Assembly (NCBI GenBank): GCA_009692425.1
Contig: SHZF01000008.1
Span: forward strand, 1-64,000
DNA from: Myxococcales bacterium
GTDB taxonomy: Bacteria; Myxococcota_A; UBA9042
Length of the DNA stretch: 64,000 nucleotides
Direction: 5' to 3'
Shown here: positions 44,163 through 58,861 of the stretch, in pieces
Position numbering within the stretch: the first letter of the stretch is position 1
Layout: the number at the start of each line of letters is the position of its first letter
The notes under the pieces: generated by a model
The model's database searches: none
Told to the model about the DNA's origin: nothing
Seen by the model: only the letters and a program-made list of their open reading frames with translations
Made by a program: the position numbers and the translations under genes

Positions 44163-45095
44163 ATGCTGCGCGACCTCCTCGTCCGCTACCGCCAGACCCT
44201 GCTGCTCGCGGTGGCGCTGCTGCTGCCGGTCGCGTCGATGTACTTCCACGGCAAGACGCGGACGGAGACGAGCGTCGTCGAGCGCAACCTGCTTGCCGTG
44301 ACCGCCCCCCTGACACGGGTCGCGCACGCGACCGTCGACGGGGCGCGCGGCCTCGCCAACGACTACGTGTTGCTCGTAGACGTGTCGCAGCGCAACGAAG
44401 AACTGCAGCGCGAGAACCGCATCCTGCTCGGCGAGGCGCTCAAGTCGCGGGCACTCACAGAGGAACTGCAGCGCGTCAAGCAGTTGTGTGGTTTTCGCGC
44501 CACTCGCCAAGGGCTTGCGACCGTCCCCGCGCGCGTGATCGGCCGCGACGTGTCGCAGTTCTTCCAGGTCGTGCGCGTCCGCATCGACACAGCCGGCGCG
44601 GCCGGGTTGGTGGAGGGCCAAGCCGTCATCACGCATGATGGCGTCGTCGGGCGCATCGAGAAGCTGGCCGACGTGTGGGCCGACGTCATGCTCGTCAGCG
44701 ACGCGCGCTCGCAGGTTCACGCAACGATCCCCGGCAAGGGCGTGGTGGGCTCGGTGCGCGGCAAGGGGCGCCGCAACGAGTTTGCGGTGCAGTTCGTCTA
44801 CCTCGAGAGCACGGACCGCCATGAGCCGATCCGCGCCGGCGACGCGGTGCTGACGACGGGGCACGACCACGTGTTTCCCGCAGGCCTCGAAATCGGCCAC
44901 ATCGGCGACGGCGCGGCCGTCCACAACGGTCCGTGGCACGAATTCGTGTTGGCGCCGGCCGTCAGCTACGCCACGCTCGAAGAAGTGCTTGTTGTGACTC
45001 AGGACCGGGGCCCGGACACCGCGCCGCTGCCCAGCGACATGCCGCGGCCGCGCCGCGCAGTCGATCCCGCCAACACGCCGGACGCGCCGCCGTAG
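44163..45095 (+). CDS. mreC: Rod shape-determining protein MreC
   Basis: 310 residues: a short cytoplasmic N-terminus, one transmembrane helix (about 10-28), a coiled coil (70-105) and the MreC beta-barrel core. Conserved blocks include VIGRDVSQFFQVVRV, GLVEGQAVITHDGVVGRI and the GDAVLTTGHDHVFPAGLEIG segment. MreC is a periplasmic scaffold of the elongasome that activates PBP2. A Pro-rich tail of 30 residues is added. mreD, mrdA and rodA follow in order; mreB is not in the window. Confidence 0.93.
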   Translation: MLRDLLVRYRQTLLLAVALLLPVASMYFHGKTRTETSVVERNLLAVTAPLTRVAHATVDGARGLANDYVLLVDVSQRNEELQRENRILLGEALKSRALTEELQRVKQLCGFRATRQGLATVPARVIGRDVSQFFQVVRVRIDTAGAAGLVEGQAVITHDGVVGRIEKLADVWADVMLVSDARSQVHATIPGKGVVGSVRGKGRRNEFAVQFVYLESTDRHEPIRAGDAVLTTGHDHVFPAGLEIGHIGDGAAVHNGPWHEFVLAPAVSYATLEEVLVVTQDRGPDTAPLPSDMPRPRRAVDPANTPDAPP

Positions 45096-45107: not shown

Positions 45108-45629
45108 ATGCGCGAGATCGTCTGGACTCTGGTCGCCTTCGCGCTGCAGGCCGCGGTTTCGCCGCTGCTGGGCCGGCTGGAGTCCCAGTTTTTCGCCCCC
45201 GACATCGCGCTGTTGACGGCCCTGTACGTGGGCAGCCGGTCGTCGTTGTTGCGCGGCGTGGCGTGCGGGTTCGCAGTCGGCTTGTTCAAGGACGGTCTGG
45301 CGCTCGCGGCGCCGATCGGCGTGTACACCGAAATCACCGTGCTCGCGGTGTTGGCCGGCCGCGTCCTCGAGAAGCGCGTCGATTTGCGCAGCGCCGTGCC
45401 GCTGATGGCGACGGCGGCAGGTGTGACGCTGGCGGCAACGGCACTTTTCCTGCTGCTCGAAGCGGTGTTCCACCGTGCCTTCGACGCCTACCTCGACGTC
45501 GTGCAGATGGCGCTGCCGCTCGCGCTCGTGACGATGCTGGTCGCCCCCCTGTATTTTGCGCTGCTGGACCGCCTGTCGCGGCCCATCGAAGGCCACGCGC
45601 GTCCGACGCTGCTCGGCCGAGGTCGCTGA
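45108..45629 (+). CDS. mreD: Rod shape-determining protein MreD
   Basis: 173 residues, five or six predicted transmembrane helices and little else, as is usual for MreD. It starts 12 bases after mreC. The segment PDIALLTALYVGSRSS and the following GLFKDGL are typical of the family. An integral membrane partner of MreC in the elongasome. Confidence 0.88.
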   Translation: MREIVWTLVAFALQAAVSPLLGRLESQFFAPDIALLTALYVGSRSSLLRGVACGFAVGLFKDGLALAAPIGVYTEITVLAVLAGRVLEKRVDLRSAVPLMATAAGVTLAATALFLLLEAVFHRAFDAYLDVVQMALPLALVTMLVAPLYFALLDRLSRPIEGHARPTLLGRGR

Positions 45630-45632
45630 TCG

Positions 45633-48101
45633 ATGGCGCTCACCCTCGGACCCTCTCACGATGCGCAGCGCCACCGGGCCCAGAACCGGTTGGCGTTCGC
45701 CGTGGTGGCCGTCGGCGTGCTGGCGCTCGCGGCGCGCTTGTTGGCGGTGCAGTGGTTGGGCGGGGAGCGGTACGAGCGGTACGCCGCGATCGAGCGGGTT
45801 TCCAAGATCACGGCGCAAGCCCCGCGCGGCCTCATCAAGGCCTCAGATGGCACCGTGTTGGCGCGCAACATCGAGAGCCATCGCCTGGAAGTCCTGACGA
45901 ATCGCGTAGTTCCTGAACGTATTCCGGCGCTTGTGCGCGACTTGCGCGGGCTGCTCGATTTTGCCGACGCCGAGGCCGAGCAGTTGGTCGCCGACCTGTC
46001 GAAACCGGTCGATCCGCGCAAACGCCGACCGCTCGCGGTGCGGCGCGATCTGGTCTCGACGCACTGCCCTTACGATTCGAGCCCACTGGAACTCATCCCG
46101 CCGGCGCCCTATGGCTTCTGCGCCACGTGCGGCCGCGGCTTCGAACCGCTGCCCGAGCGGCACGTCTGCCCCTTCGACCAGCGCCGCCTGCTGCCGCAAG
46201 ACGGTGGCGGCTTCCGCTGTTCCACGTGCGAGCGCGAGTTCTGCGCGGGCCACGCGTGCCCCTACGATCGCCGCGCGCTGCGCCAGGGCCGCCACAACCT
46301 GCGCTGTCCGCTGTGCCGGCGCACGTTCAACGACGAGGTGGCGGTGCTGCGCGCCCACCTGCACCGCATCCCTGAGGCCCGCGTCGTCGCCGAAATCCAA
46401 CGCGAGTATCCGCTGCGGTTTCTCGCCAGCCACCTGCTCGGCTACATGGGTTACGCGCAACCGGCCGACTTGCGCGCGCTGACCCCGTGGGGGCCGCAAC
46501 TGCTGGGGCCGGGCGACCGCGTCGGCCGTTCCGGGCTCGAGCGGACCTTCGACTGGACGCTGCGCGGCGTCGATGGCGAACAACTGGTGGTGCGCTCCGA
46601 CGGGCGCGAGCACGACGCCAAGGGCTACGACGAACTCGTGGGCGCGGCCCGGCCCCAGCCGATCGTCGCGGGCGCGAGCGTGCGCCTGACGCTCGACCTC
46701 GCCCTGCAGCGCGCGGCCAAGGTCGCGCTCAAGGATGTCCACGCGGGCGCTGCTGTCGCCATCGACGCCCGCAGCGGGGCGGTGCTGGCCCTGTACTCGA
46801 AGCCGTCGTTCGACCCGAACACGATGTCAGGCAAGCGCACGCCGCAGGGCAAGGTGCCCGACGACCTCGTCGCGTGGGCGCCGCTCATCCACCGCGCGGT
46901 CCACCCGTTTCCGCCCGCGTCCGTCTACAAGGTCGTGGCCGCCGTCGCCGCGCTCGAAGAGGGCCTCGTCGGAGCGCGCACGACGTTCCACTGCCCGGGC
47001 CATTACGAATTCGGCGGTCGGCGCTTCCATTGCCACGATCGGCGCGGCCACGGCGACGTCAGCATCGTGCACGCCCTGCGCGCCTCGTGCGACGTCTACT
47101 TCTACCACCTCGGCGAGTTGCTCGGCATCGACCGGCTCGAACGGTACGCGCGCCTGCTTGGGTTCGGGGCGCCGACCGGCGTGGAGTTCCCCGAGCGGGT
47201 GGGCCGCGTGCCGTCGCGGCGCTGGTACCTGGATCACGTCCGCGGCGGCTACCTGCCCGGCTTTGCGCTGTCGACGGCGGTGGGCCAGAAGGACGTCACG
47301 GCGACGCCCCTGCAGGCTGCGCGCGTCTACGCTGGGCTCGCGCGGCGCGGCGCATTGCCACAGTTGACGGTCGTTGCGGGTTGGGAGGGGCCCGACGGCC
47401 CGCTGCACGATGCGCCGCGCCCGGCGCCGTTCGCGCTGCCGCTGCGCCAACAGACGCTCGACCTCGTGCGCGAAGGCCTGCGCGCCGTGGTGCAGGACGA
47501 AGGTGGCACCGCGCGCGCCGCCCGCAGCGAACTCGTGGGCGTCGCAGGCAAGACGGGTACGGCGCAGGCAGCCCAACGTCCACGCCGCGAACTGACCGAG
47601 CGGCTGCGCGACGACCCGGGCGCCCTGCACCGCCTGGCCACCTGGATGCAGAGCGATCATGCGTGGTTCGTCGGCTACGCGCCCGCCGAAGACCCGGACA
47701 TCGTGGTCGTCGTCCTCGTGGAGCACGGCGGTTCGGGAGGCCATGTCGCCGCACCCATCGCGCGCCAGATTCTCGACGCCTGGTTCAAGCGCCACGCGGC
47801 GACGACCGAAGTGCCCGTGCCAGTGCCGGTCCCACGCGCGCGGTCCGATGCCGCGCCAACTGACCCAGGAGCCGACCCGCGGGACCCGGGCGAGGGGGAA
47901 GCCCCGCGCGACGATGCGCTGGCCCCGAGCGTGCCAGCACCCGACGACGACGCGGCAGCCCCCGAGTTGCCCGGCGAGCCCGTGCCGCCGCCCGCCGACG
48001 CGACACCCGCCTCCCACCCGTCCTTGGGTGCCGGGTCGTCCCCTGGCACCGGCTCATCCCGTGGCCCCGACTCGTCCCGTGGCCCAGGCGGCGCGCCGTG
48101 A
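45633..48101 (+). CDS. mrdA: Penicillin-binding protein 2 with an inserted Cys-ribbon array
   Basis: 822 residues, longer than the usual 600-650. A transmembrane anchor (20-42) precedes the pedestal domain. The transpeptidase is intact: SxxK at Ser430 (ASVYK), S-C-D at 485, and K-T-G at 640. Residues about 143-233, inside the pedestal, carry eleven Cys arranged as C-P-[YF]-D-x3-L and C-x2-C-x3-F half motifs. This is the same pattern as the Cys ribbon of the kinase at 55997. A Pro/Asp/Ser-rich C-terminal tail of about 110 residues is also added. It cross-links lateral peptidoglycan with RodA. Confidence 0.92.
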   Translation: MALTLGPSHDAQRHRAQNRLAFAVVAVGVLALAARLLAVQWLGGERYERYAAIERVSKITAQAPRGLIKASDGTVLARNIESHRLEVLTNRVVPERIPALVRDLRGLLDFADAEAEQLVADLSKPVDPRKRRPLAVRRDLVSTHCPYDSSPLELIPPAPYGFCATCGRGFEPLPERHVCPFDQRRLLPQDGGGFRCSTCEREFCAGHACPYDRRALRQGRHNLRCPLCRRTFNDEVAVLRAHLHRIPEARVVAEIQREYPLRFLASHLLGYMGYAQPADLRALTPWGPQLLGPGDRVGRSGLERTFDWTLRGVDGEQLVVRSDGREHDAKGYDELVGAARPQPIVAGASVRLTLDLALQRAAKVALKDVHAGAAVAIDARSGAVLALYSKPSFDPNTMSGKRTPQGKVPDDLVAWAPLIHRAVHPFPPASVYKVVAAVAALEEGLVGARTTFHCPGHYEFGGRRFHCHDRRGHGDVSIVHALRASCDVYFYHLGELLGIDRLERYARLLGFGAPTGVEFPERVGRVPSRRWYLDHVRGGYLPGFALSTAVGQKDVTATPLQAARVYAGLARRGALPQLTVVAGWEGPDGPLHDAPRPAPFALPLRQQTLDLVREGLRAVVQDEGGTARAARSELVGVAGKTGTAQAAQRPRRELTERLRDDPGALHRLATWMQSDHAWFVGYAPAEDPDIVVVVLVEHGGSGGHVAAPIARQILDAWFKRHAATTEVPVPVPVPRARSDAAPTDPGADPRDPGEGEAPRDDALAPSVPAPDDDAAAPELPGEPVPPPADATPASHPSLGAGSSPGTGSSRGPDSSRGPGGAP

Positions 48102-49225
48102 CGTGGCTGACCCGCCTGCGCCGCCCATCAACTGCGGTGGGCATTGCCTGCCTGTTGGCGCTCTGCGCGATTGCCGTCGAGAATCTCGCCTTCACCGATT
48201 CCGTGCTCGGCACGACCTATCACCGCACCCAAACGATCTGGCTCGTGTTGGGGCTGCTCAGCGGCGGCATCCTGGCGACGCTCGACACGGCCTTCGTGCG
48301 CCGGCTCGCACTCACGCTCTACCTCGGCCTGACGATCCTGCTGGTCGCCGTGCTGTTCGTGGGCCGCGAAATCAACTTCAGCCGGCGCTGGATCGAGTTG
48401 GGGCCTGTCAACCTGCAGCCTTCGGAGTTCATGAAGCTGGCCGTCGTGCTCGTGCTGGCCGACTGGTTCGACCGTCGGCGCTTTCGGGGTCCGCTCAGCG
48501 GCCGCGATCTGGTGTGGCCGCTTGCCGTCATGGCCGTGCCCGTGGTTCTCATCAACCGCCAGCCCGACCTCGGCACGTCGCTGTGCGTGGCGCTGATCGC
48601 CGTCACGCTGATTGCGTACCACGGCGTGGAGCGTCGGTTGCTCGTCGTCTGCGCAGTTGTCGTCGCCATCGCTGCCCCGCTGGCGTGGGGAACCGGCGTG
48701 ATCCGCGACTACCAGAAAGGGCGCGCCGAAGCGTGGACAAGGATGGTCCTCGACGACGAGCCGATCGTGCAGCGCCGCACGGCCGAGGCGAGCCAGGCCG
48801 AAATCGCCATCTGGGCCGTCGGGTCCGGCCGTCTGCTGGGGCGCAGCGACGCATCAGCGCGGGCTTCGGTGCTGCGCCACCTGCCGTTTGTGCACACCGA
48901 TTTCGCGCTCGCCGCGTTTGCCGAGCGCTACGGGTTCGTGGGTTGCCTGCTGATTTTCGGCCTGTATGCCGGTGTGGTCGGCTGGGCCCTGCGCCTGGCC
49001 GATCGGGCGGAGCAGACGTATGACGCGCTGGTGGCCGTCGGCGTGGCAGGCCTCGTGTTCTGGCAGTTTTTCATCAATGCCGGCATGGTGATCGGTCTGC
49101 TGCCTGTGGTCGGCCTCACCTTGCCGCTCGTGAGCTATGGTGGGTCGAGCGCACTCACGGTCCTGTTGAGCTGTGGGCTGCTCGTCAACCTCGCGCTGCG
49201 GCGTGCTGCGCGGGGTTCGGCTTGA
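48098..49225 (+). CDS. rodA: Peptidoglycan glycosyltransferase RodA
   Basis: 375 residues from a GTG overlapping the mrdA stop. A SEDS-family membrane protein with about ten helices. Conserved blocks are RRWIELGPVNLQPSEFMKLA, NRQPDLGTS, the HTDFALAAFAERYG loop and NAGMVIGLLPVVGLTLPLVS followed by YGGSS. RodA polymerises lipid II during elongation in complex with PBP2, encoded immediately upstream. Confidence 0.95.
   Translation: MTWLTRLRRPSTAVGIACLLALCAIAVENLAFTDSVLGTTYHRTQTIWLVLGLLSGGILATLDTAFVRRLALTLYLGLTILLVAVLFVGREINFSRRWIELGPVNLQPSEFMKLAVVLVLADWFDRRRFRGPLSGRDLVWPLAVMAVPVVLINRQPDLGTSLCVALIAVTLIAYHGVERRLLVVCAVVVAIAAPLAWGTGVIRDYQKGRAEAWTRMVLDDEPIVQRRTAEASQAEIAIWAVGSGRLLGRSDASARASVLRHLPFVHTDFALAAFAERYGFVGCLLIFGLYAGVVGWALRLADRAEQTYDALVAVGVAGLVFWQFFINAGMVIGLLPVVGLTLPLVSYGGSSALTVLLSCGLLVNLALRRAARGSA

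Positions 49226-55996: not shown

Positions 55997-58858
<2,862 letters not shown>

Positions 58859-58861
<3 letters not shown>

Follow-up and report, generated by a model that had tools for sequence, protein, structure and literature searches.

In one class of Myxococcota, the penicillin-binding protein PBP2, which cross-links the side wall as the cell grows, carries a conserved arm on its head that, judging from sequence and structure models, is most likely stiffened by three zinc atoms; the arm is located in the region at which wall growth is turned on in other bacteria. The arm is the new result of the present study, and the type of zinc site predicted in the catalytic domain of the same protein is already known from other PBPs. 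PBP2, a target of drugs, is among the core enzymes of the cell wall, and the way in which its pedestal is activated remains an open question. The papers found, in a search that covered few subscription publications, mention no insert of this kind and neither did the PDB yield one, in line with the preliminary description of this DNA, which knew of no such PBP2.

The gene pbp2 (mrdA) lies at positions 45633–48101 of the window, that is, of the whole 64,000-nucleotide stretch of DNA analysed, and its product is a class B penicillin-binding protein of 822 residues that belongs to the elongasome; all of its features given below are on the forward strand. The open reading frame matched the families Transpeptidase (1.9e-59) and PBP_dimer (3.8e-20), and it passed the curated cut-off of TIGR03423 (pbp2_mrdA; 480.5 bits against 455), the match being split into two stretches, of which the best begins at residue 224. 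The catalytic motifs S430-x2-K433, S485-C486-D487 and K640-T-G are all invariant, and the AlphaFold2 model placed the N-terminal membrane helix at residues 15–51. On the same strand, pbp2 sits between mreD (45108–45629; TIGR03426 at 2.2e-8, slightly below its cut-off) and rodA (48098–49225; below the cut-off of TIGR02210 at 1.5e-88, above that of NF037961), which encodes the glycan polymerase partner of PBP2, and mreC, encoding another elongasome partner, is found at 44163–45095 (NCBIfam MreC, 2e-37). The solved PBP2/MrdA proteins of E. coli, Yersinia, Pseudomonas, Acinetobacter and Helicobacter share this domain order, the catalytic motifs and the gene order mreC-mreD-pbp2-rodA, and the fold of the window protein matched them with a TMt of 0.83. 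The genome search returned a single clear PBP2, the second match being a distant PBP (E 3e-9). The Cys-rich insert sits inside an otherwise full-length PBP2.

The insert comprises about 94 residues and belongs to the head, a subdomain of the pedestal. In the profile alignment, all solved PBP2s lack it; they aligned to about position 124–138 and resumed at about 232, skipping profile positions of about 139–231, which places the insertion point in the head subdomain. Residues 143–233 correspond to positions 46059–46331, and residues 123–262 (45999–46418), the insert with its flanks, were used for the profile and for structure prediction in isolation. The open reading frame, its coordinates and the order of motifs are as described earlier. 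Residues 143–235, with CPYD, CATC, CPFD, CSTC, C204, CPYD and CPLC in this order, hold ten Cys, not the eleven counted previously. C204 is specific to the window genome and not conserved, and the other nine Cys are conserved, giving, together with three Asp, the ligand-like residues of the insert. Three C-P-x-D half motifs, P1 to P3, alternate with three C-x2-C half motifs, Q1 to Q3. P1 (C145-P-Y-D148, 46065–46076) and Q3 (C225-P-L-C228, 46305–46316) are the predicted partners of site a, Q1 (C163-A-T-C166, 46119–46130) and P3 (C209-P-Y-D212, 46257–46268) those of site b, and P2 (C179-P-F-D182, 46167–46178) and Q2 (C196-S-T-C199, 46218–46229) those of site c. All nine motif Cys, including those of P1, Q1, P3 and Q3, are invariant in the 27 intact sequences, which come from families f1, f2, f3, f7, f8 and f9, far more than chance would give. 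Apart from three sequences of one genus (L017–L019), in which P2 reads C-P-V-H, all of these keep the three Asp as well, P1 and P3 being invariant; the exchange of Asp for His is what would be expected at the position of a metal ligand. Pfam zinc families matched the window PBP2 below their cut-offs only, and members of the insert alignment gave scattered weak zinc-finger matches. When the sequence of the insert was compared with the PDB, it gave only short, uninformative Cys-rich similarity to C2H2 zinc-finger proteins.

AlphaFold2 predicted the strands of the insert region with confidence. In the full-length model (22 sequences), block pLDDT was 80–92 across the insert, and prediction of the insert alone (17 sequences) gave the same strands with pLDDT of 77–93, mostly 86–93, in the core blocks. 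In both models, strands 153–162 and 217–224 are long and unbroken, and residues 187–188 and 193–195 form a hairpin that links P2 and Q2. The strands mirror one axis (i+j of about 375), 34 of 35 strand residues matching with a slip of 2, and the single axis suggests one long beta-hairpin with P1 facing Q3, Q1 facing P3 and P2 facing Q2, pairings that were derived from strand order in the models rather than from distances. The ligand pattern and the predicted strands would fit, at the level of sequence and model, a zinc ribbon of two knuckles, four ligands and a beta-hairpin. An array of Cys ribbons in the periplasmic pedestal of PBP2, as claimed in the preliminary description, is supported in predicted form. 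Its suggestion that the outermost half motifs pair is probably correct as well, because families f5 and f12 have a short insert in which P1 and Q3 alone form a single ribbon, and the long strands of the models adjoin these two half motifs.

Foldseek with the insert alone returned the PriA cysteine-rich region and the MetRS zinc domain as best matches, which were weak (E of at least 0.04, TM 0.2); in particular, the match to the PriA-type nested zinc region was not significant (E 0.04–0.06, TMq 0.2), and the comparison is one of working principle only. Both known regions hold nested zinc knuckles and are not known to have more than two zinc sites. They are cytosolic and related to nucleic acids, whereas three sites of three Cys and one Asp are predicted in the PBP2 insert.

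The loss of Cys in decayed inserts provides evidence on the pairing that is separate from the models. Four sequences from three families (L028, L029, L030 and L032; f6, f7 and f10) lack some of the ligands although their insert is as long as before. For the six possible matchings of P with Q half motifs, the sites that were no longer intact and held an odd number of Cys were counted. There were none under the nested matching, five under the matching with kinase-type inner ribbons, seven under the tandem matching and two, seven and seven under the others. When Cys were placed at random, using one sequence per family, zero odd sites were expected with p 0.012 for the nested matching and 0.06 for any matching. 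The pattern of Cys loss may be taken as moderate support for nested pairing, and decayed sites seem to go either to Cys pairs, possibly disulfides, or to no Cys at all.

These data bear on a different zinc pairing, which we regard as unlikely, namely kinase-type ribbons Q1-P2 and Q2-P3 within an outer P1-Q3 loop, as claimed for the inner half motifs in the preliminary description, or three tandem P-Q ribbons. The kinase encoded at 55997–58861 of the window has an N-terminal ribbon, CTTC-x10-CLED, and this and the related Ser/Thr kinase ribbons (L111 and L112) are built of C-x2-C-x3-F/Y and C-x2-D half motifs with spacing like that in the insert, where 9–14 residues separate the Cys from Q to P. 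The half motifs thus do resemble those of the kinase, as had been proposed, but the likeness does not extend to the pairing, the kinase ribbon being a stand-alone Q-P unit in the cytosol and the predicted pairing in PBP2 being neither Q1-P2 nor Q2-P3. Duplication of a P-Q ribbon of the f5 type would be the simplest route to three tandem ribbons, and indels at 157 and 193 occur where tandem hairpins would turn. One of these, an insertion of 5–14 residues at position 157 in family f9, lies inside a predicted strand; the nested model does not readily explain it, and a P1-Q1 hairpin would accommodate it more easily. However, the unbroken strands leave no turn at two of the three hairpins expected for tandem ribbons in either model, and each alternative produces five or seven degenerate sites with odd Cys where nesting produces none. 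Nested Q1-P3 and P2-Q2 pairs within the P1-Q3 pair therefore fit both the strands and the Cys loss better. The f9 member L027 has a His/Lys-rich insertion of 14 residues (HDNHRHKHKKK) at position 157, between P1 and Q1, which is possibly metal-binding.

We propose the following explanation for the insert, which we consider reasonably probable as a whole: an arm with a structural role, braced by zinc, that lengthens the head of PBP2 and makes contacts in the Rod complex. One long beta-hairpin would grow from the head subdomain of the pedestal, and three zinc sites, each of three Cys and one Asp or His, would cross-brace it. The sites would be nested as rungs, with P1-Q3 at the base, Q1-P3 in the middle and P2-Q2 near the tip. 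The stiff arm would add to the head, which is part of the region that in other bacteria touches MreC and RodA and opens to activate wall synthesis, and most likely it would work inside the Rod complex as a contact or lever, acting on assembly or opening. MreC of H. pylori binds and opens the pedestal of PBP2, opening by MreC activates RodA-PBP2, and mutations in the pedestal of E. coli PBP2 activate RodA (PMC6207328, PMC10257715). The sequences show that the insert exists, how conserved and how widespread it is, its ligand pattern and its series of decayed forms; zinc, fold and nesting are predicted, and we infer the role as contact or lever. Conservation of non-ligand residues is highest at the arm's base (0.78 and 0.74) and falls to 0.48–0.58 along the arm and at its tip. 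Such a gradient favours a rigid extension anchored in the head, and a tip of such low conservation gives little sign of a conserved surface for binding. If the explanation is true, the insert would represent a periplasmic beta arm that holds several zinc atoms and in which the passage from zinc sites to Cys pairs can be followed. The class, in which the arm occurs in versions with 0, 1 and 3 sites and in partly metal-less versions, offers a natural series for testing which contacts of the head matter.

The arm could instead be a zinc or redox sensor, the thiolate sites of which release zinc or become oxidized under stress, altering the pedestal and tuning elongation. The preliminary description had proposed elongation that responds to redox state or metal; this is possible but, in our judgement, doubtful. 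Thiol-rich sites in the periplasm on a core wall enzyme would suit such a role, DsbA-family proteins were found in all 53 genomes searched, and the catalytic-domain zinc sites of other PBPs are speculated to sense redox (PMC9334274, PMC9974482). However, families f7, f10 and f6 include proteins that keep the full-length domain after ligand loss, mostly with 0 or 2 Cys per site. A sensing role should go when the thiols are lost, and yet the domain persists in three lineages, which makes a structural arm likelier than a sensor and disfavours the proposed response. The residues of the catalytic-domain zinc site are meanwhile kept in the proteins with a decayed insert, indicating that the ligand loss is specific to the insert. 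Metal-gated activation of the Rod complex, by which the class would have rebuilt the activation point of its elongasome and in which the zinc taken up by the arm in the periplasm would decide whether MreC can open RodA-PBP2, appears quite improbable.

A disulfide-rich domain without metal is less probable still. The periplasmic location and the Cys pairs retained in degenerate sites would agree with disulfides, but the conserved Cys of intact members number nine, with three at each site, and the Asp is swapped only for His. The exchange of Asp for His at a ligand position and the odd number of Cys per unit, which is three and applies also to f5 and f12, argue for metal rather than disulfides.

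The distribution of the insert agrees with a conserved part of the enzyme. In a search of 53 whole genomes, PBP2 with the insert from end to end was found in 19 relatives of the same family, and 46 of the 52 genomes of the Myxococcota class had a match to the insert profile; the class sample consists mostly of metagenome assemblies and covers this one class of Myxococcota. The same segment occurs intact in independent assemblies of about 20 genomes of the same family and in other families of the class, and an assembly error, a frameshift or a chance motif, the first two of which the preliminary description had raised together with absence from homologues, can therefore practically be dismissed. 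Mean within-family identity is 61% in the insert, 65–67% in the adjoining head, 64% in the transpeptidase domain and 28% in the C-terminal tail; selection thus acts on the insert as it does on the remainder of the enzyme. The PBP2 of family f4 is without the insert. Among the PBP2 matches listed for a phylum-wide sample of 379 genomes, those from outside the class start past the ribbon, at profile position 35 at least, and so lack the insert. Other matches to the insert profile that were examined are mostly other proteins, for example, multi-ribbon membrane proteins, and named records that carry the insert bear for the most part the labels Myxococcales or Deltaproteobacteria. In the catalytic-domain tree, the single-ribbon group (f5 and f12) is sister to the triple-ribbon group, and the loss in f4 is nested in the triple-ribbon group on a weakly supported branch. 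The insert may have started as one P1-Q3 ribbon, or f5 and f12 may have been reduced to one. A metagenome assembly labelled Klebsiella pneumoniae holds this Myxococcota PBP2 (L084, CAMDBH010000014.1), and the label is probably wrong.

The catalytic domain of the window PBP2 has a predicted zinc site of known type, C454, C467, H473 and C486 (46992–47090), the residues of which align with the ligands D350, D365, H371 and C384 of A. baumannii PBP2. The A. baumannii enzyme binds zinc in its catalytic domain through these four residues, and mutants fail to restore rod shape (PMC9974482). Class B PBPs of C. difficile have the same zinc site (PMC9334274), with Cys for Asp in PBP3 and SpoVD, the Cys-Cys-His-Cys arrangement of these two being that of the window PBP2. 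The Cys-Cys-His-Cys positions are present in the class members (L002–L049) and in the outgroup examined. Whereas the zinc of the C. difficile and A. baumannii PBPs is bound in the catalytic domain, the insert would provide separate, extra sites in the pedestal. The available text of these two papers does not name Myxococcota as a phylum with such a catalytic-domain site, and the residues found here may, as far as sequence can indicate, add to the case that wall elongation is zinc-dependent beyond the groups described so far.

Ribbons and thiol-disulfide proteins were also observed elsewhere in these genomes. Matches to the DsbA family, for which PF01323 is a broad model, numbered 19 in the window genome (G000) and 3–8 in genomes of f5 and f12. 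Several genomes of the same family encode Ser/Thr kinases that start with one C-x2-C ... C-x2-D ribbon. In other Myxococcota, predicted membrane proteins (L103–L109) end in an array of C-x2-C ... C-P-x-D ribbons, two to five in number.
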